Assembly (NCBI GenBank): GCA_013519935.1
Contig: JACDUA010000039.1
Span: forward strand, 1-40,944
Length of the DNA: 40,944 nucleotides
Source of the DNA: Ectothiorhodospiraceae bacterium WFHF3C12
Lineage (GTDB): Bacteria; Pseudomonadota; Gammaproteobacteria; Nitrococcales; Nitrococcaceae
Reading direction: 5' to 3'
Part shown: piece after piece, positions 1,949 to 40,920 of the stretch
Numbering within the stretch: the first letter of the stretch is position 1
Layout: each line of letters opens with the position of its first letter
Notes under the pieces: model-generated
Database searches by the model: none
What the model saw: the letters and a program-made list of their open reading frames with translations, nothing else
What the model was told of the DNA's origin: nothing
Made by a program: the position numbers and the translations under genes

Positions 1949-2530
1949 TTATTCCCTCGATACGTCGAAGGTTTCACGCAGTGCGTCGGCGGTCCAGGGG
2001 CTGCGGCCGGCGTGTTCCTTGCGGATGATTTTGACGGTCTCGGCGTCCACGGCCGGGGCGTGGTTGCCCCATTGGGCGCGGATGTAGCTGGTCACCGCGG
2101 CGATCTCGGCGTCGGAGAGTTGGCTGCCGAAGGCGGGCATGGACCCGTTGTAGCGTTCGCCGGCCACCTGAATCGGCCCTTGCAGGCCAAAGTTGACGAT
2201 GGCCACGGGGAGCGCCGGTTCGTTCCTGACCCAGCGGCTTTCGGCCAGCGGCGGGAAGCTACCTGGCACGCCCTGGCCGCTGGCCTGGTGGCAGGCCGCA
2301 CAGTTCGCACTGTAGACGGCCTTGCCGCTGATCGAAGCAGAGTCCGCTACATGCACCGGTGTACGGCTGTCGCCGCCAGCCAGGGGATAGCCAGTCTGGG
2401 CAATGATGTAGCCGGTACCCCAAATTACCAGAGCGGCTACCAGCATCAGGACCAAGCGGGGGACCGGTCGATCGCCCTCGGTAGGTTCCGCCTGTTCGCG
2501 GCGCTGAGGGTTGTCGCGATCACCGGCCAT
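1949..2530 (-). CDS. Membrane-anchored monoheme cytochrome c, third subunit of the cbb3-like oxidase
   Basis: 193-residue protein with one N-terminal transmembrane helix (about residues 25-45) and a single class-I cytochrome c domain: CAACH at 77-81 and a probable distal Met in GSMPAF. The ATG at 2530 was chosen over upstream alternative starts because AAGGGTG precedes it and it overlaps the end of ccoO by 11 bases. It sits where ccoP is normally found, but standard CcoP has two c hemes and this has one. It probably carries electrons into CcoO/CcoN. No ccoQ is present. The next gene starts two bases after its stop. Confidence 0.85.
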   Translation of the reverse strand: MAGDRDNPQRREQAEPTEGDRPVPRLVLMLVAALVIWGTGYIIAQTGYPLAGGDSRTPVHVADSASISGKAVYSANCAACHQASGQGVPGSFPPLAESRWVRNEPALPVAIVNFGLQGPIQVAGERYNGSMPAFGSQLSDAEIAAVTSYIRAQWGNHAPAVDAETVKIIRKEHAGRSPWTADALRETFDVSRE

Positions 2531-3134
2531 TGGCGTCACCCTTCTGCTTATGGGGCAGGGTCTCAACTGGATAGGTGTGGTCCAGAGCCTTGAGATAGGC
2601 GACCAGATCCTTGGCTTCCCGGGTGGTTACCACGGTGCCGTGCTCCGGCCCGTATGGATCGGGGATATTCACCACGGTGTCGCTCGGTAGCGGCTCGCGT
2701 ACCACACGGAACAGGTACCGATAGGCGGGCATAATGCTGTCCTCGACCACAGCCCGCGGGTTGTAAAGATGGATGTAGTGCCAGGTCTCGCTGGGCTGGC
2801 GGGCGCCGATGTTGAACAGGTCCGGGCCGGTACGCATGGTGCCCATCAAGTGGGGTTGGTCGTAGGCGTAGTCGCCGGGCACCGAAGCCCGGCCCCAGCC
2901 GCGCTGTTGATCGGCGTTGGAGAAGCCCGGATCCCGCGGCTGCTGGCTATGGCAGTAGACGCAGCCCTGGCTGATGTAGATCTCCCTGCCGCGTAGCTCG
3001 GCCTCGGAATACGCCTCCAGCTCGTCGGGGACGGGCGCGCCGGCCATTTGGGTATAGGGCATCACCACCAGCATCAGGGTGGCGAAGAGCAGTATCAGGG
3101 CGGCCCCCGCCATGATGGCGATAGTGCGGGTCAT
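2520..3134 (-). CDS. ccoO: cbb3-type cytochrome c oxidase subunit II (CcoO/FixO), monoheme cytochrome c
   Basis: 204 residues: one N-terminal membrane anchor (about 5-25), then a periplasmic cytochrome c domain with the CcoO-type heme site CVYCHSQQPRDP (Cys58, Cys61, His62) and the distal Met in SIMPAYRYLF. The QP(R/V)(D/R) run after the heme motif is characteristic of CcoO. The start at 3134 (MTRTIAIM) overlaps the ccoN stop by four bases, which implies translational coupling; the reading frame extends further upstream, but only inside ccoN. It relays electrons from the cytochrome c subunit to the heme b/b3 centre of CcoN in the inner membrane. Confidence 0.93.
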   Translation of the reverse strand: MTRTIAIMAGAALILLFATLMLVVMPYTQMAGAPVPDELEAYSEAELRGREIYISQGCVYCHSQQPRDPGFSNADQQRGWGRASVPGDYAYDQPHLMGTMRTGPDLFNIGARQPSETWHYIHLYNPRAVVEDSIMPAYRYLFRVVREPLPSDTVVNIPDPYGPEHGTVVTTREAKDLVAYLKALDHTYPVETLPHKQKGDANGR

Positions 3135-4750
3135 GTGCGGCCCTCCGGGATGGTGGAACGAAACAGGGTCGGTCGGTCGGCAGGCCGGCCGCCGAGCCAT
3201 AACAGCGTCAGGAAATGCCCGGCGAACAGCAGGTGGCTGGCGGTCATCAGTGCGCCGCCGACGGAGCGTGCCTTCAGGTAGGGCAGCGTGAGCCGGACCG
3301 TCTCCATGAACGCCGTATCACCATCGAGCAGTGCCAGCCCCTGGAACCAGCCGCCGATGGACAGCGCCACCACGTAAATGATGATGCCGCTGAACGCCAG
3401 CCAGAAGTGCAGCACGATCAACCGCCGGGAAGGCCATTCCCAGCCGGTGATCCGCGGCATGATGAAATAGACGGCGCCGAAGAGTATGAAGCTGAGAAAG
3501 GCATACATGCCCAGGTGAGCGTGTCCTACCGTGTAATGGGTGAAATGCGTTACCACGTTCACGGAGCGCAGCGCCTCCATGGATCCCTGCAGGGAGGAGG
3601 CCGTGTACATCAGCGATCCGATCCAGACGAAACGCAGGGTGGGCGAGTCCCGCAATCGGCCGAAGTGGCCGATCATCGTGCCGTGGTGGTTGATAGCCAC
3701 GGTAACGACCGGGATGACCATCATCACGCTGTGGACGATGGACAGCGTCACCAGCCAGGTAGGCACGGGCCCGCCGATCAGATGGTGGATGCCCACCTGG
3801 CTGTAGAACAGGGCGAGTGACCAGAATCCCAGCAGGGACAGGCGGTAGGAGATCACCGGTTTGCCCAGGATCTTCGGGATCATGTAGTAGGCGATGCCCA
3901 CGCCGATGGGCGTGACCCACAGCCCCAGCACGTTGTGGGCGAACCACCAGTTCACTGTTGCCCCGGCCGCCCCCGGGAACAGGTAGGGCAGGTTGGCTAG
4001 CAGGAACAGCAACGGGAACCAGATCAGGGCCCCCATCAGGTACCAGCTGGTTACGTACAGGTGACGGACCTGACGGTTTCGCACTGTCAGCAGCAGCGGC
4101 ACGGCGCACAAACCCCCGGCCAGCACGAACAGGGCGTCCACCTGCCAGGGGAATTCCAGCCATTCCTCGCCATCGGAAAGTCCGGCGCCGATGGACACCA
4201 GCCCGAGGACCATGCCCAGGTTCCAGACCCAGGCGCCGGCGGTTGCGTATCCGGCGCCCATTAACGGCGTCTTGAACAGGCGGGGCACCAGCCAGACGGC
4301 CGCCCCCAGGCCGGCCATGGAGGCCCAGCCGTAGGCCACGGCGTTCAGATGCATGGGACGAATGCGACCGAAGGTCACCGCCTCTATGTCGGCCAGCAGC
4401 TCCGGCATATGCATCTTGAGAGAGCTGAGCAGTCCATAGAGCGAACCCACCACGAGCCAGACGACGGCGGAAGCCAGTAGGGTGAGTACCGGCACCCTTG
4501 AGGAGAGGTCGGCCTCACGGCGGGCCGTTACGGCTTCTTCGTCCGTTGCGTCTCTGGGGGCGTCGGCCAATCCGTGCCGGCCGGCGGCCGGATCCTCGGC
4601 CCGTCCCACCTCGCCGGCGGCAAAGATGGTTCGTGCGGCGCTGGCGCCGTGGCTGAACTGGTCGGTAGCGATGGACCAGACCAGAGCCAGCAACGCGCCT
4701 ACGGAGATCAGAAAGGTCAGTGCCAGCAGAAACGCAATGGTTGGAGTCAC
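3131..4750 (-). CDS. ccoN: cbb3-type (class C) heme-copper oxidase catalytic subunit with CcoS-like N-terminal segment
   Basis: 539 residues, GTG start after GGGGGA. Residues about 1-50 (one helix, then ALVWSIATDQF and TIFAAGE) resemble the assembly protein CcoS; an acidic linker (50-83) leads into CcoN. Catalytic residues are present: His134 (low-spin heme b), His272, His322 and His323 (CuB), Tyr302 in SYRLS (class-C active-site Tyr), and His410/His412 in GHAH (heme b3 and b). The CuB histidines and Tyr argue for an oxygen reductase, not a NorB-type NO reductase. The Glu of the usual FEG motif is Gln388 (SLQGSM), which may alter proton or active-site chemistry. It lies 214 bp downstream of a Cys-rich gene preceded by an NsrR-like operator, so the oxidase may be induced by NO. 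Confidence 0.92.
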   Translation of the reverse strand: MTPTIAFLLALTFLISVGALLALVWSIATDQFSHGASAARTIFAAGEVGRAEDPAAGRHGLADAPRDATDEEAVTARREADLSSRVPVLTLLASAVVWLVVGSLYGLLSSLKMHMPELLADIEAVTFGRIRPMHLNAVAYGWASMAGLGAAVWLVPRLFKTPLMGAGYATAGAWVWNLGMVLGLVSIGAGLSDGEEWLEFPWQVDALFVLAGGLCAVPLLLTVRNRQVRHLYVTSWYLMGALIWFPLLFLLANLPYLFPGAAGATVNWWFAHNVLGLWVTPIGVGIAYYMIPKILGKPVISYRLSLLGFWSLALFYSQVGIHHLIGGPVPTWLVTLSIVHSVMMVIPVVTVAINHHGTMIGHFGRLRDSPTLRFVWIGSLMYTASSLQGSMEALRSVNVVTHFTHYTVGHAHLGMYAFLSFILFGAVYFIMPRITGWEWPSRRLIVLHFWLAFSGIIIYVVALSIGGWFQGLALLDGDTAFMETVRLTLPYLKARSVGGALMTASHLLFAGHFLTLLWLGGRPADRPTLFRSTIPEGRT

Positions 4751-5899: not shown

Positions 5900-6034
5900 T
5901 TTAAGTTCGGCGTGCCAGTCGGCACGAATTGGCGAGACGGTCGTAAGGCTGAGTGAAGCCGAGACGCAGTCGCAACACGACGTAGTCACGCCAAGAAGGG
6001 CCACCGGTCGTTCAAGGGCGGAGGATTGCCTTAC

Positions 6035-7093
6035 ATGCGCGTGATTGAAACGCTGAAGAATGCGACTGAGACCCTGTCGCCGGCCTACTTTGCCATGGTC
6101 ATGGCTACCGGCATCCTCTCCATTGCGGCGGACATGCAGGAGCTGGGTACCGTCGCCCTGGGGCTGTTTCTGGTCAATATCGTCGCTTACGCCGCGCTTG
6201 GTGTGATGCATGGTCTGCGACTTGCCTGGTTTCCGGCGCGTTTCCTGGCGGATCTGACGGACCACGCCAGGGGACCAGGCTACTTTACATGGGTGGCCAG
6301 CACGGCCGTGCTGGGCGGCCAGTTCATTGTGCTAACGGACGGATATCGTGTTGCGGTCGTGCTTTGGGGCATTGCCTGCCTGCTGTGGCTGGCTGTGACG
6401 TACACGCTGTTCACGGTATTCGTCGTAAAGGAGCACAAGCCGGGTCTCGGCGAGGGCATCAATGGCGGGTGGCTGTTGGCGGTGGTCGCAACCCAGTCCA
6501 TCGCGGTGCTAAGCGCGTTGATCGCCCCACACTGGATCCAGCCATACCGCCTGGAGCTGAACTTTGTTGCGCTGTCGATGTGGCTGTGGGGTGGGATGCT
6601 CTACATCTGGATGATCGCGCTCATCTTCTATCGTTATTATTTCTTTTCCTTCTCGCCTGGTGATCTCGCGCCGCCATACTGGATCAACATGGGGGCGATG
6701 GCCATTTCGACGCTCGCCGGCTCTCTGCTCATCGTCAATAGTCCGGACGCGCCCTATCTTGAATCCCTGCTACCATTCCTCAAGGGGTTTACGGTTTTTT
6801 ATTGGGCCACCGGTAGCTGGTGGATTCCGATGCTGCTGCTTCTAGGCATCTGGCGGCACGCAATCAAGCGGTTCCCGCTAAGCTACGACCCGCTGTACTG
6901 GGGGTTGGTCTTCCCGCTCGGCATGTACACCGCATCCACCTCCCAGATGATCCGGGCGATGGACCTGGGATTTCTCGAGGTTGTGCCTGACGTCTTCTTC
7001 TACGTTGCGCTGATCGCTTGGGGTCTCACCTTTATCGGGATGATGGCGCAGATGATTCGTACCCTGCTTCCGCGGTCGGCCGAGTCGCTGTAG
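6035..7093 (+). CDS. TehA/Mae1 (TDT, SLAC1-type) family transporter
   Basis: 352 residues, about ten transmembrane helices. It opens with SPAYFAMVMATGILSIAA, the typical first helix of the tellurite-resistance/dicarboxylate transporter (TDT) family, which in other organisms carries anions, C4-dicarboxylates or sulfite. ATG 6035 is chosen because GGAGG lies ten bases upstream; the TTG at 6026 would sit right on that site. It precedes nsrR by 32 bp in the same direction, probably as one transcript from the promoter around 5890. Substrate unknown; an inorganic or organic anion relevant to low-oxygen or nitrogen-oxide metabolism is a guess from context. Confidence 0.85.
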   Translation: MRVIETLKNATETLSPAYFAMVMATGILSIAADMQELGTVALGLFLVNIVAYAALGVMHGLRLAWFPARFLADLTDHARGPGYFTWVASTAVLGGQFIVLTDGYRVAVVLWGIACLLWLAVTYTLFTVFVVKEHKPGLGEGINGGWLLAVVATQSIAVLSALIAPHWIQPYRLELNFVALSMWLWGGMLYIWMIALIFYRYYFFSFSPGDLAPPYWINMGAMAISTLAGSLLIVNSPDAPYLESLLPFLKGFTVFYWATGSWWIPMLLLLGIWRHAIKRFPLSYDPLYWGLVFPLGMYTASTSQMIRAMDLGFLEVVPDVFFYVALIAWGLTFIGMMAQMIRTLLPRSAESL

Positions 7094-7125: not shown

Positions 7126-7560
7126 ATGGAACTGACACAGCATACCGACTACGGGCTGAGAGTCCTCATGTACGCCGCCAGCAACCCTGGACGCCGCGTG
7201 ACGCTCAAAGAGGTCGCGGCCGCTTACTCCATTTCCATGGAGCATCTTCGTAAGGTCGTTCATCGCCTGGCCCGCCACGGCCTGCTGGTCACCGCCAAGG
7301 GCCGTTCTGGCGGCTTCATGGTTAGTCAGCCGGCGGGGGAAATACGTGTCGGCGATGTGGTGCGGTTGCTGGAGGGTTCACTGGAGATCGTCGACTGCGA
7401 GCGCCAGCCTTGCCCATTGCGGGGGGCGTGTGCGTTGAAGCGCGCCCTGCAGCAGGCCCGCCATGCCTTCATGGAGGAACTGGACAAGGTCACGCTGGCG
7501 GACCTTGTCAGCGAGGGTGACACCGTGGATCGTCTGTTGAAGCTGAACGCCAGGCCCTAG
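7126..7560 (+). CDS. nsrR: NsrR, [4Fe-4S] NO-sensing Rrf2-family repressor
   Basis: 144 residues, full length for NsrR. It starts MELTQHTDYGLRVLMY, the Rrf2 first helix, has a winged helix (about 25-65) with KVVHRLARHGLL and the wing KGRSGGF, then VDCERQPCPLRGAC. The three Cys fall at 91, 96 and 102 (C-x4-C-x5-C), the same numbers as in E. coli NsrR, and Asp8, the fourth cluster ligand in Streptomyces NsrR, is also present. In known systems the [4Fe-4S] protein represses until NO destroys the cluster. The matching AATGTAT-N5-ATACATT dyads in this window are its likely targets. It is convergent with the P450 gene. IscR is excluded because its Cys spacing differs. Confidence 0.95.
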   Translation: MELTQHTDYGLRVLMYAASNPGRRVTLKEVAAAYSISMEHLRKVVHRLARHGLLVTAKGRSGGFMVSQPAGEIRVGDVVRLLEGSLEIVDCERQPCPLRGACALKRALQQARHAFMEELDKVTLADLVSEGDTVDRLLKLNARP

Positions 7561-7639: not shown

Positions 7640-8809
7640 TTAATTGCCGTTCGGCGCGTCGTCCAGTCTCGCCGGCAGCCGGTGGTAGCCGCTGCCCGGA
7701 TAGCCGGCAGGCTCCGGATGGTCGTTGCTGATGGGCGAGAGACGTGATGTTCTCGCCAATAACGCCTCCAGGAATACCCGCAGCTCCATGCGTGCGAGCG
7801 GCGCTCCGGGGCAAACATGCATGCCGGCGCCCCAGAGCAGGTTCCCGGACTGATCCCGGGACAGGTCGATGGTGTCCGGCTCGGCGAAGGCTTCTGGATC
7901 TCGATTGGCAGCAACCCAGTTAAGAGTAAGTCGGTCACCGGCCTCGATATGCCGTTCACCGAGGGTTGCGGGCTGTGTGGCGACCCGCCGGTTGTCTACC
8001 AACGGGCCGTGCCAGCGCAGGATCTCTTCGATGGCATCGGCGCACAGCGCTGGCTCGTCCCGCAGCTGACGCTGTAGCGCGCGATCATGGGCGAGGGCGT
8101 GCACGATGATACCAATGGCGGCGGATAGGGTGCCGATTTCGCCCACTGTCCAGTTGCGCAGAATGGAGACAATTTCCACGTCGCTCAGCGGCCGGCCGTC
8201 CACCCGCTCCCGCATCAACCGGCTGGTGGCGTCGTCACCGTTTAGTCCTGCATCGCGCCGGACGTTGAGTGCGTGTGACACATAGCCCTGGAAGGTCTCC
8301 GCGAGGCGGGCGAGGCGAGGCCGGTCCCGCTCCAGGGTGGCCTGCTGGTTCTCCAGGGTCCATTCCACCAGGGTTGGGCCAAGGTCGTTCGGCCAACCGA
8401 GGAAAGCGCACTGTGCGGCGGCTGCGAAGGGCCGGGCCACGGCCTCCATCACCTCGACCGTGTCGTTTGTCCCCGCCGCCTCCAGGACTCCGTTAGCGAT
8501 CGCCTCGCAGTCCGGCTCAAAACCGGCGACCCGAGCCTCGCTGAAATAGGGCTCGATCAGCTGCCGATAGACCGTGTGCTGCGGCGGGTCCATGCCATTG
8601 GGTACGGATATGTGCCGGGAGACCGCATTGCTGAACGTATCGGGGTCGTGGAGGACCCGGGTGATGTCCTCATGCCGGAACAGCGTCCAACCCTGGTACT
8701 CACTGTAAGCGACCGGACACTGCTCGCGCATGCGGTCATAGGCAGCGCGCTGGTTGTCCAGGATCTCCGGTGAGACCGGATTCCAGTCTTCCTGCCGGGG
8801 GGTGCCCAT
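7640..8809 (-). CDS. Cytochrome P450 with non-canonical I-helix and Trp in the heme loop
   Basis: 389 residues, soluble bacterial-type P450. E262-x-x-R265 is the K-helix motif, NRDPEAF is typical, and the heme Cys333 sits in WGAGMHVCPG; the family usually has Phe where this has Trp326. The I-helix reads TVGEIGTLSAAIG: aligned to P450cam, the Thr252 equivalent (Thr227) is kept but the acidic Asp251 equivalent is Gly226. Fungal P450nor (CYP55) also lacks the acid. Start ATG 8809 follows GGAGG at the right distance. No ferredoxin or reductase gene adjoins it. A perfect TTGAC-N4-GTCAA box lies about 91 bp upstream. The P450 call is firm; a role in NO chemistry is only a hypothesis, and monooxygenation or peroxygenation remains possible. 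Confidence 0.93.
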   Translation of the reverse strand: MGTPRQEDWNPVSPEILDNQRAAYDRMREQCPVAYSEYQGWTLFRHEDITRVLHDPDTFSNAVSRHISVPNGMDPPQHTVYRQLIEPYFSEARVAGFEPDCEAIANGVLEAAGTNDTVEVMEAVARPFAAAAQCAFLGWPNDLGPTLVEWTLENQQATLERDRPRLARLAETFQGYVSHALNVRRDAGLNGDDATSRLMRERVDGRPLSDVEIVSILRNWTVGEIGTLSAAIGIIVHALAHDRALQRQLRDEPALCADAIEEILRWHGPLVDNRRVATQPATLGERHIEAGDRLTLNWVAANRDPEAFAEPDTIDLSRDQSGNLLWGAGMHVCPGAPLARMELRVFLEALLARTSRLSPISNDHPEPAGYPGSGYHRLPARLDDAPNGN

Positions 8810-8893
8810 CGAGGCCTCCACAACGCCGTTGATTCAGTCGGGCCGCTGCCCGGTTCCGACACAAGACGCTAACCGGACAGCCGAACGTACACG

Positions 8894-8907
8894 TTGACGC
8901 GAGTCAA
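8894..8907. promoter_or_regulatory. FNR/DNR-type box upstream of P450
   Basis: TTGACGCGAGTCAA, a perfect TTGAC-N4-GTCAA dyad. It is centred about 91 bp before the P450 start codon. Crp/Fnr-family NO or oxygen regulators (FNR, ANR, DNR) recognise TTGAT-N4-ATCAA and close variants such as TTGAC/GTCAA. The same dyad recurs at 27343. Confidence 0.6.
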
Positions 8908-8947: not shown

Positions 8948-9430
8948 TTATCGGTCCGACGGCGTGACGCCGGGAAAGCGCTGCGAGACATAACGGCCGT
9001 GGCAGCCGGCGCATTGACGCGTCATGCTCTCGAAGCGTGCCAACTCGGCGGCCGTGTCCTTCTGCTGTGCCGCCGCGGCGAGTTCAGCCGCCGTCGCGTG
9101 GAAGCGCTTGTCGCGCTTGATGAAATCCTTGGGAACGGCCCCGGCCAGGTCCTTGCGGTCCGCCGGCGTCAGCTCCTGCTTGAGGATGAAGCTGTCGTGG
9201 ATGGCCTGTGCCTTGTCCTGGACCCGTGCGTGATCACCCGTCACGATACCTTCGTAGATCGACTGCATTGCGTCGGTAATGTGCCGCATCTCCTGCTGCA
9301 GGAGTCCCCGTAGCTTGGGTGTGAGCGCGGCGGTGACATCTTGATCGTCCTCGTTGTCGGCACCGGCTCTCAGCGGGATGATTACGAGCGCGCCCAGCAA
9401 CAGGACGGCGAGCGGCTTTGACAGGGACAT
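8948..9430 (-). CDS. Periplasmic c-type cytochrome, c'/c556-like four-helix type
   Basis: 160 residues with a Sec-type signal peptide (about 1-24, hydrophobic PLAVLLLGALVIIPL) and one heme site, CAGCH (140-144), close to the C-terminus. A C-terminal heme site in an all-helical protein is the arrangement of cytochrome c' and c556. Met48 in the first mature helix could be the distal ligand, which would make it a c556-type electron carrier; a five-coordinate c' would bind NO. GGAGG precedes the ATG at 9430. It follows the sulfide:quinone oxidoreductase by 60 bp on the same strand and is probably co-transcribed with it. Confidence 0.82.
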   Translation of the reverse strand: MSLSKPLAVLLLGALVIIPLRAGADNEDDQDVTAALTPKLRGLLQQEMRHITDAMQSIYEGIVTGDHARVQDKAQAIHDSFILKQELTPADRKDLAGAVPKDFIKRDKRFHATAAELAAAAQQKDTAAELARFESMTRQCAGCHGRYVSQRFPGVTPSDR

Positions 9431-9490: not shown

Positions 9491-10738
9491 CTACCCGTTG
9501 GTGGATTTCAGTGGACGGTGGCGTATGTCCGGCTCGCGACCGCGCAGCATCTGCTTCCAGTAGAACGGCGGCAACAGGCGTTTCTTGACGAACCAGTAGA
9601 AGCGGGACTCCTTGAACGGGTCAAGCGGCAGCGTCGGTGTCACGACGCCGTTATAGACGAACTCGGCCAGCATCACACGCCCATAGGCCGTGACCAGCGG
9701 GCACGAGGTGTAGCCATCGTAACGCCCGGCCATGGGTTTGTTGTCCAGCCAGGCGAGCAGGTTCTGCACGCTCACCGGTGCCTGCTTGCGCACCGCCGCC
9801 GCCGTCTTCGAGGTGGGCAGCGAGCTGGCGTCGCCCAGCGAGAAGACGTTCGGGTAGCGTTGGTGCTGGGTCGTAGCGGCATCCACGTCGGCCCAGCCGT
9901 CTGCGTTGGCCAGTGGGCTGTCGCGCAGAAAATCCGGCGCCCGCTGGTGAGGGGTGACATGCAGCATTTCGAAGGGCTGTTCGACGATTCGGGTTTCGCC
10001 CTGGCCATCAGTGGTCTTGAAGCGGGCAACCCGGGCCTCGCTATCCACCGAAACCAGGTCGTGCCCGAGCTTGACGTCGATACTGTAGCGCTGCGCGACG
10101 CGCTCCAGATGCGGCACGAAGTCCGGTACGCTGAATAGCGCGCCGGCCCCGCTGTAGAAACCCAGATTGCTCTGCGAGAGCCGCCCCTGCCGGCGCTGGT
10201 GGTCCGCCGCCAGGTAGGCGATCTTCTGCGGCGCTCCCGCACATTTCAGAGGCGGCGGCGGTTGAGTGAACACCGCGTTGCCGCCGCGGAAACCGCGCAG
10301 GCATTTCCAGGTATACGGTGCCAGCTCCGGGTGGTAATTGCTGCACACCCCATTGCGCCCGAGGGCCTCCCGCAGGCCCTCGACCCGGTCCCAGTCCAGG
10401 TGGATGCCGGGGGCGACGACCAGCACCTGGTAGCCGATGGTGCATCCGTCTTCCAGCGTCACCTGATCCTGATCGGGTTCGAAGGTGGCAACCCGCTGGC
10501 GAATCCAGGTCGCGGCATCGGGCAGGGTTTCCCGCTGCGGGCGCACGGTGCGTTCCATGGCGTAGGTGCCGCCGCCGACCAGTGTGAAGGCCGGTTGGTA
10601 ATAGTGCGTATCGCTGGGCTCGATAATCGCCACGTCGAGATTTGGCCGCCGACGGAGCAATGACGCGGCCACCGTGGTCCCGGCGGTGCCGCCTCCGACA
10701 ATAACGATCTGGTGATGTGAAGGGGTTGGATTACTCAT
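9491..10738 (-). CDS. sqr: Sulfide:quinone oxidoreductase, mitochondrial SQOR-like (type II)
   Basis: 415-residue FAD disulfide oxidoreductase. The N-terminal Rossmann motif is VIVGGGTAGTTVAASLL; PPPLKCAGAPQKIAYL carries Cys166, and YDGYTSCPLVTAYGR carries Cys346, the redox-active pair (human SQOR Cys201 and Cys379). Cys132 in VCSNY is also conserved. The whole chain, including MLHVTP, GWVDVD-like and YPNVF-GD segments, parallels human SQOR. It oxidises sulfide at the membrane and reduces quinone. The C-terminal stretch after 370 (FYWFVKKRLLPPFYWKQML) is the membrane-association region. An FNR-like box lies 78 bp upstream of the start codon. The downstream c-type cytochrome may be linked to its function. 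Confidence 0.95.
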   Translation of the reverse strand: MSNPTPSHHQIVIVGGGTAGTTVAASLLRRRPNLDVAIIEPSDTHYYQPAFTLVGGGTYAMERTVRPQRETLPDAATWIRQRVATFEPDQDQVTLEDGCTIGYQVLVVAPGIHLDWDRVEGLREALGRNGVCSNYHPELAPYTWKCLRGFRGGNAVFTQPPPPLKCAGAPQKIAYLAADHQRRQGRLSQSNLGFYSGAGALFSVPDFVPHLERVAQRYSIDVKLGHDLVSVDSEARVARFKTTDGQGETRIVEQPFEMLHVTPHQRAPDFLRDSPLANADGWADVDAATTQHQRYPNVFSLGDASSLPTSKTAAAVRKQAPVSVQNLLAWLDNKPMAGRYDGYTSCPLVTAYGRVMLAEFVYNGVVTPTLPLDPFKESRFYWFVKKRLLPPFYWKQMLRGREPDIRHRPLKSTNG

Positions 10739-10808: not shown

Positions 10809-10822
10809 TTGAGTAAAATCAA
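10809..10822. promoter_or_regulatory. FNR-type box upstream of sqr
   Basis: TTGAGTAAAATCAA matches the FNR consensus TTGAT-N4-ATCAA at 9 of 10 fixed positions; the centre is 78 bp from the sqr start. It partly overlaps a second AT-rich dyad, AATCAATT-N10-AATTGATT, at 10817-10842. The region also forms the 3' flank of gltD. Confidence 0.6.
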
Positions 10823-17314: not shown

Positions 17315-17914
17315 TTACTGTACGCACAGAGGGCAGAAGCCCGTGCCTGATTGCGGTAGGTGGAACTGGAACTCATGCTCGATTCGGTCGCGAAGATCGC
17401 GGTAATGGGCCGCGTTCTCCGGCGTGAACGCTGGATCCAGGGTCCACTGAAAGGCGGTGGTCATCTCCATCCAGTCCTGCGCCGTAAGTGACTCATCCAG
17501 AACAGGGAACAGATCCCGTTCCTCGCCATTGAGATGGCTGCGGTAGAGACGAACATAGGCGCGGGCGGTACGCAGCAGGTGATCGCGAGGTACCGGGATG
17601 CCAACCTCGATTTCATCAATTCGGCGCTGCAGTTCTGTACTCTTGCGCGCCAGGCGTTTGCGTTGGCCGTGGATGTGAGAAACGACGTTGACGGCATCGG
17701 GGCGGCACGCGACCAGCCGTTGCATGAGGAGCTCCTCAAACGGATAGTGGTAGTGGTCCGGGTTCCGAACCAGATAGCCGAGGATATCCTCCATCAGGGC
17801 GAAGTCCGGGTTGTTGTTCGCCTCGACGCACTCGAGCTGCTGCTGCATCGCTTGGAGCAATGCCCTGAGATTGTCGTGGTCCTGCCGCAGTCGCTTAAGC
17901 ACCTGATTGTCCAT
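17315..17914 (-). CDS. Hemerythrin HHE-domain protein, probable di-iron NO/O2 sensor or repair protein
   Basis: 199 residues with one complete hemerythrin-like four-helix bundle. Ligand candidates: His13 (DHDN), His54, His56 and Glu60 (DHYHYPFEE), His80 or His82 (SHIHG), His127 and Glu131 (SHLNGEERDLFP). A short C-terminal tail has CPLC. It lacks the N-terminal Cys domain of the E. coli repair protein YtfE/RIC, but hemerythrin proteins are classical NsrR targets. A perfect NsrR-like dyad is centred 42 bp upstream of the ATG. It may bind NO or O2 or supply iron for cluster repair; which of these cannot be told from sequence. Confidence 0.9.
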   Translation of the reverse strand: MDNQVLKRLRQDHDNLRALLQAMQQQLECVEANNNPDFALMEDILGYLVRNPDHYHYPFEELLMQRLVACRPDAVNVVSHIHGQRKRLARKSTELQRRIDEIEVGIPVPRDHLLRTARAYVRLYRSHLNGEERDLFPVLDESLTAQDWMEMTTAFQWTLDPAFTPENAAHYRDLRDRIEHEFQFHLPQSGTGFCPLCVQ

Positions 17915-18029: not shown

Positions 18030-19169
18030 TCAACGCGGTGGAATACGTACGAGCAGAATCAGCAGCAGCGCATAGGAGAGTGCCCAAAGGCCGCTTGCTA
18101 ACGCCAGCGCTGTCATATTCTCCGGCATGAGGATGCGGAGCAGGGCAGCCGCCGCTATCGTGCCGGCCATCAGCGGGATGGTCAGCGATCGCGCTGGGTC
18201 GCGTTTCGCCCTGTTCAGCCGTACGCGTGCCATGACACCGGTGGTGAGTGTCCCCAGCGCACCCACCGTGATCGCATGGGTCGCCGTGGTGGCCCCGAGC
18301 AGGCCGCTCGTCCAGGCCGTGCCGAGTAGCGCCACGCCGGCCACCAGCCAGGCATAGCCGAACCCCAGGCACCAGAGGTCCGGCCGCCCAGCCGCCGCCC
18401 AGAGACGCCAGCGCAGCAGCCGGGCCAGGCCGAGCGCGGCGGCCAGTATTGCGAGTCCGCCGGCGGTGACGCGAGCGTCGGGGACCGCGGCCGTGGTGAC
18501 TGCAAGAGCCATGATGATTAGCAGGGCGCCTTCAATGCGCGGCTGCACCCGCGCCTCCAGGTGACCGCCCGCACGCTGTATGGCGCCAGCGGCGGCCGGC
18601 GCGATAATCCGGCCGCCCATGAACAGCATCAGCAGCGCGAGCAGAAGCACCGCCTCCTGTAGTAACACGAAAGAAAGCCAGGAGACGCCGGATGCGGCCG
18701 CGGCATGGAACAGGACCGGGACGGCGCAGAGGGCGATCAGCAGTGGCGCGATGGTCTGGTTGCGCCACTTCTTGGCGCCCTTCATGAACTGCGGCACCAC
18801 CAGCCAACCGAGCATGGCGGGGAACGCGGCGTTGGCCAACAGGGCGGGCGCGCCGCCGGGCAGCAGCAGATAGCTGAGCCGGGCAAGCAGCCAGAGCGCG
18901 AACAGGCCCGCCAGCCGAGGGGCGGATACACGGTTGATCAGATAGCCCGATACCACCGCCAGGGCGAAGCCGAACAGCAGCTCGTGGGCATGACCTGCCG
19001 GCGTGGCAAAGGCCGGCAGCAGCGGCTCACCGGACAGCATCCCGTGCACGCTAGCCGGCACCACCACGGCGGCATAGAGTGTCGCGGCAGGGAAGAAGAC
19101 CTTCTCAGCGGCGTGGTGACGGGCAGTCGACGACCGACGCCTGCCCGCGGCTGGTTCGGCTGCAGCCAT
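18030..19169 (-). CDS. nnrS: NnrS family heme-copper membrane protein (NO stress)
   Basis: 379 residues, about twelve hydrophobic helices. The N-terminal helix-loop GHAHELLFGFALAVVSGYLI and the later HAITVGALGTLTTGVMARV are characteristic of NnrS, a membrane protein that relieves NO stress and is under NsrR or NnrR control in other proteobacteria. The HAH and later His residues could bind heme or copper. It starts 12 bp after fdxA (stop at 19182) on the same strand, so it is probably expressed from operator 4. Exact biochemical activity is not established for the family. Confidence 0.93.
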   Translation of the reverse strand: MAAAEPAAGRRRSSTARHHAAEKVFFPAATLYAAVVVPASVHGMLSGEPLLPAFATPAGHAHELLFGFALAVVSGYLINRVSAPRLAGLFALWLLARLSYLLLPGGAPALLANAAFPAMLGWLVVPQFMKGAKKWRNQTIAPLLIALCAVPVLFHAAAASGVSWLSFVLLQEAVLLLALLMLFMGGRIIAPAAAGAIQRAGGHLEARVQPRIEGALLIIMALAVTTAAVPDARVTAGGLAILAAALGLARLLRWRLWAAAGRPDLWCLGFGYAWLVAGVALLGTAWTSGLLGATTATHAITVGALGTLTTGVMARVRLNRAKRDPARSLTIPLMAGTIAAAALLRILMPENMTALALASGLWALSYALLLILLVRIPPR

Positions 19170-19181
19170 GACAACGTGGGC

Positions 19182-19505
19182 TCAGCGTTCCAGATGTGGC
19201 AGCTTATTCGGCACGCCGTCCCATTCCTCAGCGTCTTCCGGAGGATCCTTCATCTCGGTGATCACCGGCCACTTTTTCGCAAGCTCGGCGTTGATTTCCA
19301 GGAAATGCGCCAAGTGATCCGGCACATCGTCCTCCGAGAAGATGGCCTCCGCCGGGCACTCCGGCTCGCAGAGGGTGCAGTCGATGCACTCCTGCGGGTC
19401 GATGGCGAGGAAGTTCGGCCCCTCGTGGAAGCAGTCCACGGGGCAGACCTCAACGCAGTCCGTGTACTTGCACTTGATGCAGTTATCGGTGACGACGTAG
19501 GTCAC
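19182..19505 (-). CDS. fdxA: 7Fe ferredoxin FdxA ([3Fe-4S][4Fe-4S])
   Basis: 107 residues starting [26 protein letters not shown], with a second [16 protein letters not shown]: together the classic 7Fe cluster set. The conserved C-terminal half ends KLPHLER as in FdxA of many bacteria. The start is GTG 19505, with GGGAGG upstream; longer in-frame extensions run through the operator and do not match the family. It passes electrons to unknown partners; the P450 and the SDH genes are possible beneficiaries. It is divergent from sdhB and upstream of nnrS, with an NsrR-like dyad 42 bp from its start. Confidence 0.96.
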
Positions 19506-19537
19506 AGGTGCCTCCCAAACAGCAGGGATCACATGAA

Positions 19538-19556
19538 TATGTATATGATATACATT
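19538..19556. promoter_or_regulatory. NsrR-like operator 4 between fdxA and sdhB
   Basis: TATGTATATGATATACATT: 6/7 and 7/7 matches to the half-sites with the 5-bp spacer. The centre is 42 bp from the fdxA start, the same distance as at the hemerythrin, and about 180 bp from the sdhB start on the other side. Confidence 0.75.
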
Positions 19557-19725
19557 TACAAGATACAAAAAATACCTCGACCACATGCTGTGCCCGCCGG
19601 CAGCGTGGCGAGTCTATGCGTGATTGCTGCCGGTCCCATCGCGCCGGTGACCGTCTGCTATGGTGGGCGGTAGCCGCGCGCCAGCAGCCACGATCTGTAG
19701 GCGGTCATTGACGGGAGTCCATCAA

Positions 19726-22345: not shown

Positions 22346-22768
22346 ATGAAACGCAACGCGGCAGCAGTATGGCAAGGTGGTCTCAAGGACGGTAGCGGGA
22401 CCATTTCCACCGAGAGCGGGACGCTGGCCCAAGCCCAGTATTCCTTTGGCGCCCGCTTCGAGCAGGGCAGCGGCACCAACCCGGAAGAGCTTCTCGGGGC
22501 CGCCCATGCCGGCTGCTACTCCATGGCCCTTTCGCTGGTGCTGGGCGAGTCCGGCATCACCCCGGAGCGGATCGACACCACGGCCACCGTGAGCATCGAG
22601 CCGGACGATGGCGGCTTTACCATCACCGCGGTGCATCTGGACGTCCATGCGCGCATCCCCGGCATCGATGAGCAGGCCTTTCAGGATGCAGTCAATGCCG
22701 CAAAGGCGGGGTGCCCGGTATCGAAGCTGTTCAACGCCGAAATCACGCTTCAGGCCCAGCTCGCCTGA
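22346..22768 (+). CDS. OsmC/Ohr family peroxide-handling protein
   Basis: 140 residues. Shows the family core [23 protein letters not shown] (first reactive Cys) and [11 protein letters not shown] (second Cys), matching OsmC better than Ohr. These proteins reduce organic hydroperoxides with the Cys pair. ATG 22346 has AGGAGG nine bases upstream and starts 12 bp after the rubredoxin stop. It belongs to the same operon and fits a stress-defence set. Confidence 0.93.
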
Positions 22769-22803
22769 CGCCTGGCACACAGATGCAGATAGGGAGTCTT
22801 GTC

Positions 22804-23067
22804 ATGAATCGTGACAACCAGGCCGGTGATGCGACGGAGACCGCTTACGTCTTCGACGCGCGCGGCATCGACCGCCGTTTCAGGCACCCGGCCATCTTCG
22901 CCGCTGTGGACTCGCTGACCCCCGGCGAGGTCATGCGCTTCGTCAACGATCACGATCCGCTGCCCCTGCTTGGCCAGTTGGGCGAGATATTCGGCGAAGC
23001 GCTCGGGGTTGACTACCGCCAGCGGGAACAGGGTGCGGTGGTCATCGACTTCCGGCGCCTGGACTGA
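22804..23067 (+). CDS. DUF2249-domain protein
   Basis: 87 residues, single small alpha/beta domain of the DUF2249 type: FDARGIDRRFRHPAIFAAVDSLTPGE, VNDHDPLPLLGQL and YRQREQGAVVIDFRRL. Such domains occur near denitrification, NO-stress and Fe-S genes; the biochemical role is unknown. ATG 22804 has GGGAG upstream. It is the last gene before a strong hairpin terminator at 23103. Confidence 0.85.
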   Translation: MNRDNQAGDATETAYVFDARGIDRRFRHPAIFAAVDSLTPGEVMRFVNDHDPLPLLGQLGEIFGEALGVDYRQREQGAVVIDFRRLD

Positions 23068-23751: not shown

Positions 23752-23765
23752 TTGATGAAGGTCAA
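23752..23765. promoter_or_regulatory. FNR/DNR-type box upstream of ubiUV
   Basis: TTGATGAAGGTCAA: exact TTGAT-N4-GTCAA, the consensus given for DNR-type regulators. The centre is about 84 bp before the ubiU start codon, the same geometry as the other boxes here. Confidence 0.7.
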
Positions 23766-23842
23766 TCTCTCGGCCGCCGCGGCACCGCTATGCTTGGGGG
23801 CTACGTCACGCGGTGGCATTGGCACAGGCGAGGGGACGAGCA

Positions 23843-24841
23843 ATGGAGCTGGTATGCCCGGCGGGTAGTCTGCCCGCACTCCAGGCAGCCGTGGACAACG
23901 GCGCCGACACGGTCTACACGGGGCTGCGGGACGGGACCAACGCCCGGCATTTCCCCGGTCTGAACTTCACTCCCGAGAAGCTGCGTCGCGGGATCGACTA
24001 TGCCCACCGGCACCGGCGGCGCGTACTCATGGCCATCAACACCTATGCGCAGTCGAGTGGCTGGGCGCAGTGGACGAGCGCCGTCGATCACGCCGCCGAT
24101 CTGGGAATAGACGGCATCATTCTGGCTGACGCCGGGCTTCTGGAATACGCATCCCGCACCCACCCGAATCTGCCCCGGCATCTTTCCGTCCAGGGCTCGG
24201 CCACCAGCACCGAAGCGCTGCAGTTCTACCAGGAGCTCTTCGGTATTCGACGGGCGGTGCTGCCGCGGGTGCTGTCGCTGGCCCAGGTCACCCGGCTGGC
24301 CGAGGATGCCCCGGTGGAACTGGAAGTGTTCGGTTTCGGCTCACTGTGCATCATGGCCGAAGGCCGCTGCCTGCTCTCGTCCTACGCGACCGGCGAGTCC
24401 CCCAATACGGCTGGGGCCTGCTCCCCGGCGGCGCACGTGCGCTGGTCCGAGTTGGACGACGGCCACCTGGAGTCGAGGCTCAACGGTGTGCTCATCGACC
24501 GCTTCGAGCCGCAGGAGCGCGCCGGCTACCCGACTCTGTGCAAGGGTCGATTCACCGTCGGTGAGCACACCGGTCACATCCTGGAGGAACCCACCAGCCT
24601 GAATACCCTGGACCTGCTGCCCCAGCTCCACGCCGCAGGCATCACGGCCATCAAGCTGGAGGGACGCCAGCGCAGCCCGGGCTACGTGGCCGGCGTGACC
24701 CGGGTCTGGCGCCAGGCCATCGACCGCTGCCTGCGGGATCCGGGCGCGTACCGGACCGATCCGGACGGTAATGTCGTCCTGGCAGGGTTTTCCGAAGGCA
24801 GTCAGACGACTCTGGGTGCCTATCACCGATCCTGGCAGTAA
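23843..24841 (+). CDS. ubiU: UbiU, O2-independent ubiquinone biosynthesis [4Fe-4S] protein
   Basis: 332-residue U32 peptidase-family protein. The cluster cysteines are at 169, 176, 193 and 233, nearly the same positions as in E. coli UbiU (169, 176, 193, 232), within GFGSLCIMAEGRCLLSSY and NTAGACSP. With UbiV and UbiT it allows the hydroxylations of ubiquinone synthesis without O2. ATG 23843 follows AGGGGACGAG. The FNR/DNR box 84 bp upstream suggests low-oxygen induction. ubiV follows 15 bp later. Confidence 0.96.
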   Translation: MELVCPAGSLPALQAAVDNGADTVYTGLRDGTNARHFPGLNFTPEKLRRGIDYAHRHRRRVLMAINTYAQSSGWAQWTSAVDHAADLGIDGIILADAGLLEYASRTHPNLPRHLSVQGSATSTEALQFYQELFGIRRAVLPRVLSLAQVTRLAEDAPVELEVFGFGSLCIMAEGRCLLSSYATGESPNTAGACSPAAHVRWSELDDGHLESRLNGVLIDRFEPQERAGYPTLCKGRFTVGEHTGHILEEPTSLNTLDLLPQLHAAGITAIKLEGRQRSPGYVAGVTRVWRQAIDRCLRDPGAYRTDPDGNVVLAGFSEGSQTTLGAYHRSWQ

Positions 24842-24856
24842 ACGGAAGACGCATCG

Positions 24857-25744
24857 ATGCCGAAGATTGCATTGGGGCCATGCCAGTATTTCTGGCCCCG
24901 CGAGCAGACCGAGACTTTTTACGCACGCATCGCCGAGACGTCGGCGGATATCGTCTACCTGGGCGAGTCCGTCTGCCCCAAGCGCCGGGAGCTGCGTCCG
25001 GAGGATTGGATTGCCCTGGGCCGCGAACTGGCAGCGCAGGGCAAGGAGGTGGTGCTGTCGACGCTCACCCTGCTTGAGGCACGCTCCGAGCTCGGAATGG
25101 TCCGGCGGTTGTGCGACAACGGAGAGTTTCGGGTCGAGGCCAACGACGTAGCGGCGGTGCAGATGTTGCGCGAGCACCAGCTGCCGTTTGTCGGCGGCGC
25201 CTTTCTGAATATCTACAATCCCGAGAGCCTGCGCCTTTACCGAGAGCAGGGCATGTTCCGGTGGGTGATGCCGCTGGAGATGGGGCGCGACAGCCTGGGT
25301 GCGTTATTGGCCGACTACAGTGCAGCCGATGTCGAGACCGAGGTGTTCGCCTACGGTCGTATGCCACTGGCCTGGTCGGCCCGCTGTTACACCGCCCGTT
25401 ACCATGACCTGCCAAAGGACCAGTGCGGCCTGCGTTGCATCGAGGACCCGGAGGGCATCCCGGTCCATACCCGCGATGGCGAGCTGTTCCTGAATATCAA
25501 TGGTATCCAGACCCAATCCGGCCGAGTGACCAACCTGTTACCGGAGTGGCAAAACATGGCCGATATGGGCGTGGATGTACTTCGTATTAGTCCGCGCCCG
25601 GAGGGCACCGCGGAGCGTATCGAGGCCCTGGCGGCGGAAATGCGCGGCGAGCAGGGCGCCGTGGCGGCCATGAGCGAGGGCGAGGTGGAGGACTGCAACG
25701 GCTACTGGTTCGGGCAGGCCGGCATGCAGGTGGTGCGGGAATGA
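24857..25744 (+). CDS. ubiV: UbiV, partner of UbiU in anaerobic ubiquinone biosynthesis
   Basis: 295 residues. Opens PKIALGPCQYFWP; cluster cysteines are Cys40 (GESVCPKRRELR) and three in ARCYTARYHDLPKDQCGLRC with C-x12-C-x3-C spacing, the pattern of E. coli UbiV (39, 180, 193, 197). It forms a heterodimer with UbiU. Same operon as ubiU. Confidence 0.96.
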   Translation: MPKIALGPCQYFWPREQTETFYARIAETSADIVYLGESVCPKRRELRPEDWIALGRELAAQGKEVVLSTLTLLEARSELGMVRRLCDNGEFRVEANDVAAVQMLREHQLPFVGGAFLNIYNPESLRLYREQGMFRWVMPLEMGRDSLGALLADYSAADVETEVFAYGRMPLAWSARCYTARYHDLPKDQCGLRCIEDPEGIPVHTRDGELFLNINGIQTQSGRVTNLLPEWQNMADMGVDVLRISPRPEGTAERIEALAAEMRGEQGAVAAMSEGEVEDCNGYWFGQAGMQVVRE

Positions 25745-26031: not shown

Positions 26032-26499
26032 TCAACTCATCCGACCGGGGTCGGCGGGCTGATCCGGCACGAGATCGGCAAGTCGATACAGCCAAGGCGC
26101 CAGCGCTGCGGGCAGTCCTGCAGCGGCAACGGTGTCCAGCACATTTTTCACGACTAGGCCCAGCGCCGTATCGCCGGACATGGACAGCCGCCGCTGGAAG
26201 AAGAGCGTGTCCGGGTCGAGGCGCTGGGCAGCCACCAACAGCAGATCCTCCGCCTGCGCCCGTATGGTGACGGCGGGAGCGCTCCGGCTCGGCATGATTC
26301 GTCCGCGTTCGACGGTCAGTGACAGGTCCAAACGCGGCTCGTGAATCTCGACCCGAACCGTCTGCCCTTCCAGCTCGTCCAGGTCACCGTCGGCCAATGG
26401 CTCCCGCAGTGCGAGGGTGCTCAGGAAACCGGTCATGGCATTCACCACGGGCGGTGGGGCCAGGCATAGCGGTTTCAGAAGCGTGCTCGGACGAAGCAT
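26032..26499 (-). CDS. ubiT: UbiT, SCP2-domain protein of anaerobic ubiquinone biosynthesis
   Basis: 155 residues, one SCP2 (sterol carrier protein) domain: VRVEIHEPRLDLSLTVERGRI, then TIRAQAEDLLLVAAQRLDPDTLFFQRRLSMSGDTALGL. UbiT binds isoprenoid precursors and completes the UbiUVT set. ATG 26499 follows GGAG. It lies 109 bp downstream of the Fnr-like gene on the same strand, possibly co-transcribed. Confidence 0.92.
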   Translation of the reverse strand: MLRPSTLLKPLCLAPPPVVNAMTGFLSTLALREPLADGDLDELEGQTVRVEIHEPRLDLSLTVERGRIMPSRSAPAVTIRAQAEDLLLVAAQRLDPDTLFFQRRLSMSGDTALGLVVKNVLDTVAAAGLPAALAPWLYRLADLVPDQPADPGRMS

Positions 26500-26608: not shown

Positions 26609-27271
26609 TCACAGTGCAACCTGGTCCGCCGCGTCGTGCGCCACCAGATCGCGGACCGTGGCGACACTCAGCCGGAGATGGTTGGCCATCAGCGGCACTG
26701 ATATGCGCAGCTGCTCGCCCGAACCGGGTGTCACTGCCTCACTTCGTTGCCGCAGCGCCTTAAGGCAGTCCACCACCTTCCGACGCGGCTCAGCCAGCAT
26801 GAGGTAGCGGTGCTGGCGTGCGTCCACCTTGGCCTGCCAAGCCATAGCGCTCTTAAGGACCTGCATACCAATCGGTGAGTCAGTCGCAGCGAGCCTTTCA
26901 GAGTCCAGCGGGCAGACTATCGCCGGCTGTATTGCTACGGCGGAAAACCAGTAGCGGCCATAAGCGAAGCCCCCAAGCCCCGCCAGCTCACCCGGCAGGT
27001 AGAATCCGACCACGGTAGGCTGATGTTCATCATTCACCTGCCAGCGGGCGAGAATCCCGCGACGGACGGCATAGAGGTTGCGGAAGGGCTGGCCGCTGCT
27101 GAACAGGGTCTCGCCGGGCTCCAAACGCGCCAGCGGTTGGAAGGCCTCGGCGCTGTGCTCGCGCACGGGGGGCAGGGGGCACTGCCCGGCCTGCGGACAG
27201 CTGTGGCAGGGCGATACATCCGAGAACCGGATGAGCCGGAGCCTTGACGATCGACAATCCGTTGACTTCAT
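26609..27271 (-). CDS. Crp/Fnr-family regulator with FNR-type cysteines but divergent recognition helix
   Basis: 220 residues (FNR is about 250). The N-terminal CHSCPQAGQC places Cys22, Cys25 and Cys31, and Cys120 in AIVCPLD matches the fourth FNR ligand, so it can hold an O2/NO-sensitive [4Fe-4S] cluster. The cNMP-like beta domain is at about 45-125 and the dimer helix at 130-165. The recognition helix reads SVATVRDLV where FNR has TVETISRLL: the Glu and Ser-Arg that read TTGAT are Ala, Arg and Asp, and the chain stops soon after with no wing. A TTGAC-N4-GTCAA box lies about 78 bp upstream. It is a plausible regulator of the boxes here, but its DNA recognition is uncertain. Confidence 0.88.
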   Translation of the reverse strand: MKSTDCRSSRLRLIRFSDVSPCHSCPQAGQCPLPPVREHSAEAFQPLARLEPGETLFSSGQPFRNLYAVRRGILARWQVNDEHQPTVVGFYLPGELAGLGGFAYGRYWFSAVAIQPAIVCPLDSERLAATDSPIGMQVLKSAMAWQAKVDARQHRYLMLAEPRRKVVDCLKALRQRSEAVTPGSGEQLRISVPLMANHLRLSVATVRDLVAHDAADQVAL

Positions 27272-27342: not shown

Positions 27343-27356
27343 TTGACGTGCGTCAA
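27343..27356. promoter_or_regulatory. FNR/DNR-type box upstream of the Fnr-like gene
   Basis: TTGACGTGCGTCAA, perfect TTGAC-N4-GTCAA dyad, same half-sites as the P450 box at 8894. Centre 78 bp from the regulator's start codon; suggests autoregulation or control by another Crp/Fnr protein. Confidence 0.6.
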
Positions 27357-39022: not shown

Positions 39023-39046
39023 TGATGGTCATTGAACTTTCCCCAC
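39023..39046 (+). repeat. Left terminal inverted repeat of the IS21-type element
   Basis: 24 bp, exact reverse complement of 40921-40944. Confidence 0.95.
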
Positions 39047-39568
39047 CTGCTGGGTTTCGGTGATGGGTTCCTCGGGCCGGACGAGACCGGCGCGGAGCTT
39101 CTCCTCGAGCTTGCCCTCGTTCAGCGCCTTGGTCAGGGTGGCGATCATGGCCGTGGCGGTGGTGAACAGCACCCTGTAGCCGTGGTTGGTCGCCTCCAGG
39201 CCTAGGCCGACGGCGAGGTGGGTTTTGCCCACCCCCGGCGGGCGGAGGATGATCACGTTTTCGCCGTGGTCGATGAAGTGGCAGGCGGCCAGCGCCGTGA
39301 GCTGCTTCTTGTCGAGCGAGGGCTGGTAGGCGTAGTCGAAGGCGGCCAGGCCCTTGACGAAGGGGAAGCGGGCCAGGCTGGTGCGCATGGTGATGTTCTT
39401 GGCGGTCTTCGCCGAGACCTCCTCACCGAGCAACAGCTCGAGGAAGTCGGCGTAGCCGAGCTCCTTGCCGGCCGCCTCCTGGAGCAGTGCCTCGAGCCGT
39501 TCCTGGCTCTTGAACAGCCGCAGCCGATGCAGGTGCTCGCCGAGGCGTTCGAGTTGGGCGGGGTTCAT
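39029..39568 (-). CDS. istB: IstB-like helper ATPase, truncated
   Basis: 179 residues (IstB is about 250). N-terminal helical part, then Walker A RPPGVGKTHLA (near residue 110; Gly of GPPG is Arg). After KLEEKLR (about residue 155) the usual Walker B and downstream domain are absent; the chain ends AGLVRPEEPITETQQVGKVQ, and the stop lies in the terminal repeat. An internal deletion of about 80 codons is the likely cause. ATG 39568 overlaps the istA stop. The element is probably non-autonomous. Confidence 0.9.
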   Translation of the reverse strand: MNPAQLERLGEHLHRLRLFKSQERLEALLQEAAGKELGYADFLELLLGEEVSAKTAKNITMRTSLARFPFVKGLAAFDYAYQPSLDKKQLTALAACHFIDHGENVIILRPPGVGKTHLAVGLGLEATNHGYRVLFTTATAMIATLTKALNEGKLEEKLRAGLVRPEEPITETQQVGKVQ

Positions 39569-40896: not shown

Positions 40897-40920
40897 GGCA
40901 CTCCCTCCGCAAGGTGGAGG

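Follow-up and report, generated by a model that had tools for sequence, protein, structure and literature searches.

The window, that is, the whole 40,944-nucleotide stretch of DNA analysed here (contig JACDUA010000039.1 of Ectothiorhodospiraceae bacterium WFHF3C12), carries on its minus strand a cytochrome P450 gene (7640–8821), the product of which is 393 amino acids in length as read from a GTG start, with an ATG at 8809 as alternative. Membership of this protein in the P450 superfamily is seen in its Pfam p450 score (66.8 bits, cut-off 22.8), its Cys ligand and ExxR motif, and its fold. The structure as predicted by AlphaFold2 from 56 family sequences has a pLDDT of 92 and a pTM of 0.92, and all 50 of the Foldseek matches listed are P450s by title, the best E value being 7.8e-25. 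As modelled, any helix in the B-C region would be shorter than four residues, with helices F and G appearing to be joined by three residues.

The I-helix of this P450 reads RNWTVGEIGTLS. Within it the motif RNWTVGEIGT (8129–8158, minus strand; residues 222–231) has Gly230 instead of the canonical acid, at what we take to be the position of Asp251 in P450cam numbering, and retains Thr231. The heme loop WGAGMHVC (7811–7834, minus strand; residues 330–337), which extends as WGAGMHVCPG, supplies Trp330 and the ligand, Cys337. Residue numbers here are counted from the GTG. The original prediction, i.e., an earlier reading of this same DNA, counted instead from the ATG four codons later, with numbers therefore four lower; its Gly226 and Thr227, described as an absent acid beside a retained threonine, thus are Gly230 and Thr231, and the Trp326 which it placed in the heme loop is Trp330.

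Convergent with the P450 is an Rrf2-superfamily regulator (7126–7560, plus strand), the best family match of which is NsrR (NCBIfam NF008240; 130.5 bits, cut-off 182), preceded by a SLAC1/TDT-family transporter (6026–7093, plus strand). The next gene upstream of the P450 encodes a cytochrome c'-like protein (8948–9430, minus strand; PF01322, 29.5 bits, cut-off 26.5), and two genes upstream is a flavoprotein (9491–10738, minus strand) resembling type III sulfide:quinone reductases (SQRs), its score of 201.8 bits against selenoprotein-type SQR III lying under the cut-off of 525. Flavocytochrome c-type relatives are found close to the P450 in three other loci (L097–L099).

Farther along, on the minus strand, are a hemerythrin-domain protein (17315–17914), NnrS (18030–19169), and a Fer4/DUF3470 ferredoxin (19182–19586). 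These are followed by a DUF2249 protein (22711–23067, plus strand), by two U32 peptidase-family proteins, presumably UbiU/UbiV-like (23813–25744, plus strand), by an SCP2-domain protein which we take to be UbiT-like (26032–26499, minus strand), and by a Crp/Fnr-type regulator (26609–27271, minus strand) in which Pfam finds only the cNMP-binding domain and in which an N-terminal CxxC-x5-C can be seen by eye. Fumarate reductase/succinate dehydrogenase-type subunits are encoded in the window too. The claim that NsrR, hemerythrin and NnrS lie nearby thus stands insofar as all three are present, but the NsrR-like protein is below its family cut-off, and NnrS and hemerythrin are 8–10 kb off. Equally, the claimed absence of an adjacent redox partner is right for the neighbouring genes, the ferredoxin gene being about 10 kb from the P450. 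That ferredoxin, with relatives in three other P450 stretches (L137, L138, L140), is the nearest candidate electron donor found.

Two further features lie toward the window's ends. At 1949–4750 (minus strand) is a cbb3-like oxidase set consisting of a 539-aa CcoN-like subunit, a FixO-like subunit, and a CxxCH protein. The CcoN-like subunit, at 269 bits versus an NCBIfam ccoN cut-off of 583, may be of a divergent subtype. At 39029–40935 (minus strand), that is, at the window end, is what is judged by eye to be an IS21-type transposase and helper pair.

The stretch separating the P450 from the cytochrome c'-like gene contains an FNR/DNR-type palindrome, TTGACGCGAGTCAA (8894–8907). This palindrome is exact and 72 bp upstream of the P450 GTG, i.e., at promoter distance, just as the original prediction had claimed of a box upstream of this gene. 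The same type of palindrome precedes the U32 pair by 47 bp (23752–23765) and the Crp/Fnr-type gene by 71 bp (27343–27356), and a one-mismatch box (10809–10822) lies upstream of the SQR-like flavoprotein. The exact form, TTGAYNNNNRTCAA, is present three times in the window versus 0.05 times as expected from shuffles; boxes with at most one mismatch number 12, versus 1.8 expected. With its box at promoter distance, the P450 gene may be counted as a putative member of an FNR/ANR/DNR regulon.

The P450 family and its I-helix

The window P450 falls within a single clade of 83 tree rows (SH-aLRT 99), outside of which are both P450nor and seven other P450s from related genomes. The tree, as built by a quick method and displaying some long branches, consists of 90 of 106 P450 sequences plus P450nor, with fragments, duplicates, and rows with internal stops excluded. 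Its rows span nine phyla, i.e., Pseudomonadota, Verrucomicrobiota, Planctomycetota, Actinomycetota, Acidobacteriota, Myxococcota, Thermomicrobiota, Armatimonadota and Hydrogenedentota. From genome contigs, a scan yielded 80 named loci, the best 80 of 91 relatives, at 41–62% identity, two records among the loci (L005 and L029) appearing to be one that is duplicated. Carriers of the family include Aquisalimonas and Halopseudomonas, as well as the culturable nitrate respirers Noviherbaspirillum autotrophicum and Marinimicrobium agarilyticum. Plasmid records add homologues from Paraburkholderia, Caballeronia, Shinella, Ciceribacter, Ensifer and, at 46% identity, the cyanobacterium Sphaerospermopsis, along with Deinococcus plasmid homologues at 37–38%.

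Two individual members may be described here. On a Deinococcus ficus plasmid (L114), a 38% homologue is flanked by siroheme/nitrite-sulfite reductase genes on one side and on the other by a TIGR04053 radical SAM gene, a context which differs from that of the proteobacterial family loci. One genome related to that of the window (G004) has two copies of the P450. The first is an uninterrupted reading frame, with narG about 14 kb away. The second (L019; also L132, 9331–10545) has an in-frame stop and a partly missing C-terminal end, and it adjoins NsrR, hemerythrin, NnrS, and a TDT transporter which is a relative of that found in the window.

Absence of the I-helix acid is a trait of the family, since position 230 is Gly, Ser or Ala (81, 7 and 1, respectively) in all 89 family rows having a residue there, counts over rows which here, as below, include near-duplicates. 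Homologues possessing a canonical acid–alcohol pair, which the original prediction had named as counting against it, thus were not seen among these rows. Position 231 is nevertheless Thr or Ser in all 89 (83 and 6), RNW is found in all 89 rows with that stretch, as are both E266 and R269, and C337 is present in 88 of 88. The heme-loop aromatic, in turn, is Tyr (72) or Trp (16), the usual Phe being absent from all 88 rows. By comparison, D/E-T is seen at the canonical I-helix position in each of the ten non-family rows having the stretch (eight distinct genes). The window P450 and its family, that is, lack the D or E preceding the conserved I-helix Thr which with that Thr makes up the acid–alcohol pair of canonical monooxygenases.

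Most members possess another conserved acid two residues upstream of the missing one. This residue, E228 in the window P450 and overlooked in the original prediction, is retained in 85 of 89 rows, with Asp in two of the others and His in two. In L011 and L103 the motif is AGHGT, which differs from the common AGHET solely in the acid.

Gene neighbourhoods, genomes and upstream boxes

Genes flanking the P450 were compared using 19 seed proteins representing 15 gene types (NnrS, RIC, qNorB, cNorB, NarG, NarH, NarI, NarK, HemN, NsrR, Hmp, UbiU, UbiV, UbiT and hemerythrin), types picked after neighbours had been clustered and with some seeds taken from the P450 loci themselves. At least one of these NO, nitrate or anaerobic gene types is present in 26 of the 80 named loci versus none of 60 control stretches (834 kb, drawn from 50 of the named genomes, with 25 of the 60 shorter than 15 kb and four of these under 600 bases). 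Limiting the comparison to stretches of at least 15 kb leaves 19 of 56 named loci versus 0 of 35 controls (Fisher p 3e-5). Among 13 extended loci of the window's class, which to judge from an Aquisalimonas member should be Gammaproteobacteria, ten have such genes. With seed-giving loci removed, the numbers are 23 of 77 for the named set and 8 of 11 for the class set. None of the 15 types was found in the remaining 54 named and three class loci.

The partners vary. In the named set the most frequent is RIC (14 loci), and among the class loci it is NnrS (8 of 13). Plasmids of Paraburkholderia and Caballeronia show the order narGHJI, a peptidylprolyl isomerase gene, narK, a small gene, and then the P450, with DUF2249, hemerythrin, NnrS and Rrf2 genes found beyond this stretch on the Paraburkholderia plasmid. 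NnrS adjoins the P450 in three loci (L128, L133, L137), the last of which has, by a P450 piece ending at the contig end, RIC twice, NsrR, hemerythrin, NnrS and ferredoxin. In a fourth locus (L129) the P450 is divergent from a globin-FAD-NAD, i.e., flavohemoglobin-type, gene with two boxes in between, and in a fifth (L139) it is surrounded by NnrS, UbiU, UbiV, UbiT, NarK and NarG. qNorB is present in six planctomycete or verrucomicrobial loci (L041, L046, L057, L086, L089, L108), two of them near-identical.

A fixed operon partner was not found, immediate neighbours instead varying among loci. When Pfam families were tallied over the 150 ORFs closest to the P450, out of 415 near ORFs, the commonest families reach 7 of 150 and are from a single Burkholderiales lineage. 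Rrf2 and hemerythrin are not in excess there, with two each among those 150 versus two and three, respectively, among 150 of 372 farther ORFs. With neither a dominant partner nor such an excess, the NO/nitrate link thus is with the island rather than with any one neighbour. CrcB and a 'lysine decarboxylase'-family gene were considered as partners and set aside, being limited to one Burkholderiales lineage. As separate observations, nine loci from at least two phyla (L030, L033, L034, L038, L041, L048, L063, L064, L082) have a gene for a Cys/Met-metabolism PLP enzyme no more than 6 kb from the P450, and in L139 (9718–11342) a UbiT-like ORF abuts that of the P450, both being on one strand and preceded by a box. 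The latter arrangement suggests a two-gene unit and a possible link of that P450 to anaerobic quinone synthesis.

Boxes recur as well. Of the 88 loci having at least 150 bp of upstream DNA, 13 have TTGAN6TCAA no farther than 300 bp ahead of the P450 (12 of 87 without the duplicate), versus about 1.1 as expected from the background of that same DNA, and in 12 of these 13 the box is 60–135 bp from the P450 start. In the extended set, a box precedes the P450 in L128, L129, L137 and L138 and the UbiT–P450 pair in L139. This box is absent upstream of the P450 in the other 75 of the 88 loci, where therefore either other regulators act or none of the FNR/DNR kind.

In a class-level sample the family is present, at E ≤ 1e-60, in 6 of 276 genomes, too few for a co-occurrence test, and a relatives set and the named set therefore were used. 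The relatives set contains 59 genomes, including the window's own, ten of which carry the P450 family (G035 counted from two N-terminal fragments, each at a contig end, and G032 from a 33% homologue). NarG is above cut-off in eight of these ten versus 13 of the 49 other relatives (p 0.002), and RIC is found in four of ten versus one of 49 (p 0.002). NorB-like proteins, at five of ten versus 12 of 49, display no clear association (p 0.13), and five of the ten (G004, G026, G032, G035, G039) have NarG without a NorB-like match. Other contigs of the window's genome encode NarG and a qNorB-type protein; RIC had no match in this genome.

Named-genome counts cover 50 of the 80 named loci (L029–L078) and are compared with 200 genomes of the window's phylum, sets which differ in taxonomy. 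NarG is present in 29 of the 50 versus 24 of the 200 (p 6e-11), and NorB-like matches in 40 versus 54 (p 1e-11), though weak matches of about 470 aa may represent cNorB or instead cbb3 oxidase subunits. Counting strong NorB-like matches only (E below 1e-60), the numbers are 27 of 50 versus 15 of 200. Given NorB-like matches in 40 of 50 P450-bearing genomes, the P450 does not in general take the place of NO reductase (NOR). Nor need NO removal depend on the P450 where NOR is lacking, since at least one NOR-less relative (G039) has a flavohemoglobin-type gene beside its P450.

Possible roles of the P450

That the P450 sits within an NO-response locus, as originally proposed, is borne out by the NO/nitrate genes and boxes of the window together with the same gene set in part of the family, and the P450 itself very probably belongs to the nitrate/NO response. 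Low oxygen or NO thereby would induce the P450, via its FNR/ANR/DNR-type box, within a larger set of nitrate-respiration and NO-defence genes. NO formed in nitrate respiration might then be bound by the ferric heme and, with electrons from ferredoxin or NAD(P)H, be turned over, e.g., to N2O. The P450 would in this way shield cytosolic enzymes alongside NorB, RIC, NnrS, hemerythrin or Hmp, and loss of the I-helix acid would fit a chemistry that has no need for proton delivery to bound O2. The likeliest single role is that of a heme-thiolate enzyme which consumes NO in the cytosol, at a probability of roughly 0.4, with a micro-oxic monooxygenase close behind; NO as the substrate is a similarly tentative proposition. 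An enzyme supplied directly by NAD(P)H in the style of P450nor is clearly less probable than NO as substrate. It is doubtful, if conceivable, that this phylum-spanning bacterial family reduces cytosolic NO or consumes it in some other way, convergently with P450nor, by another electron route, and replacing NOR in nitrate respirers without it.

The monooxygenase alternative would be a class I enzyme of micro-oxic, nitrate-respiring cells, ferredoxin-fed and with Glu228 or water replacing the missing acid, and is a credible if lesser contender. The model is closest to EryK, CYP109 and AryC, i.e., to structures titled hydroxylases and the like, one of which (7ayx) similarly is without the acid; E228 is retained nearly throughout the family; and the window locus does possess a ferredoxin gene, with its relatives in three other loci. 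A monooxygenase nevertheless might be expected in other company than anaerobic nitrate respiration, and no biosynthetic or catabolic partner lying within 6 kb is common to more than 9 of the 90 clustered loci, the nine being those sharing the PLP enzyme. The AGHGT of L011 and L103, furthermore, is without either acid.

The same NO/nitrate context and the same loss of acid could also accompany a heme-thiolate which binds NO without turnover, that is, a non-catalytic sink or sensor acting perhaps with a protein partner, and the window P450's immediate neighbours include no reductase gene except for the SQR-like flavoprotein. Retention of all of the P450 hallmarks (E266, R269, C337, and Thr or Ser at 231) makes such a role unlikely. 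Less probable still is a mobile gene with an unrelated job which collects in anaerobic islands through joint exchange. The spread over phyla is indeed patchy, some members are plasmid-borne, and 54 of 80 named loci have none of the sought genes, but unrelated phyla show different partners from the same functional set, and boxes are found upstream of the P450 itself.

The window P450 is a member of an uncharacterised bacterial family which lacks the usual oxygen-activation acid. Among the papers listed in full-text searches of the open literature, none was found on this family or on a P450 in an NnrS/NsrR/Nar locus, and a term search of Rodionov 2005 (PMC1274295) gave no P450 match. Should the NO-consuming role be true, such a bacterial counterpart of the known P450-type NO reductases, widespread as it is, would give denitrifiers as well as incomplete denitrifiers a soluble path for turning NO into N2O, and gene-based estimates of N2O producers would change. 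Even without NO reductase activity, a P450 linked to anaerobic respiration and lacking its oxygen-activation acid would be unusual, and its chemistry is directly testable.

Comparison with known P450s

EryK (PDB 2JJO), AryC (PDB 7AYX) and CYP109 are the nearest solved structures by Foldseek, at 24–30% identity. The PDB titles of EryK and CYP109 name erythromycin, steroid or fatty-acid ligands, in which they are unlike the window family. AryC, also the top phmmer match among solved structures, is like the window P450 in having no acid at that I-helix position, and loss of the acid alone thus is not diagnostic of NO reduction.

Other P450s are comparable in chemistry or setting. The nitrating P450s TxtE and RufO, which a section of PMC9500659 describes as consuming NO plus O2, are likewise bacterial P450s with NO-involving chemistry. 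The window P450 is not a TxtE-type 4-nitrotryptophan synthase, scoring 66.7 bits against TIGR04458 versus a cut-off of 500. A portion of PMC13033781 reports a P450-type NO reductase from a green alga, besides those of fungi, and also a 'CYP55-like' protein of Nostoc sp. MS1, proposed before now, by similarity only, as a bacterial P450 that reduces NO. The likeness of the latter to the window family is by description, not by sequence. In Hyphomicrobium denitrificans, an excerpt of PMC12423496 places a P450 within a sulfur-oxidation locus.

P450nor (CYP55A1; PDB 1EHE) forms N2O from 2 NO, NADH and H+ without a redox partner, as stated in part of PMC5691058, and its Ser286, Thr243 and Ala239 contact the nicotinamide amide, according to a passage in PMC4030948. 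Identity between it and the window P450 is 23% over 370 columns. CYP family membership involves identities of about 40%, and CYP55 orthology was rejected in view of that 23% together with P450nor's position outside of the family clade. K62, R64, E71, S73, S75, D88, R174, S286 and D393 of P450nor we take to be NADH contacts or parts of its proton path. In the window P450 the columns of K62, R64 and E71 have A, S and N, those of S73 and S75 are gaps, that of D88 has G, and those of R174, S286 and D393 have E, P and G, so that of ten residues compared only Thr243 is kept. Direct reduction by NAD(P)H in the manner of P450nor, as originally suggested, finds no backing in this distance or in these residues.

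What survives of the proposed likeness to P450nor is the absent acid, the Thr243 column, which is Thr or Ser throughout the family alignment, and the R174 column, which is Lys or Arg in 45 of 56 family rows; the other residues compared in the window P450 do not support it. With the tested residues not kept except for Thr, the shared loss of acid is convergent at best. P450nor and the window family thus are alike as P450s with a small residue in place of the I-helix acid, with the Thr retained, with an E-P-x-F in the C-helix, and with an NO context; they are unlike in the heme loop, where P450nor has Phe and the window family Tyr or Trp.
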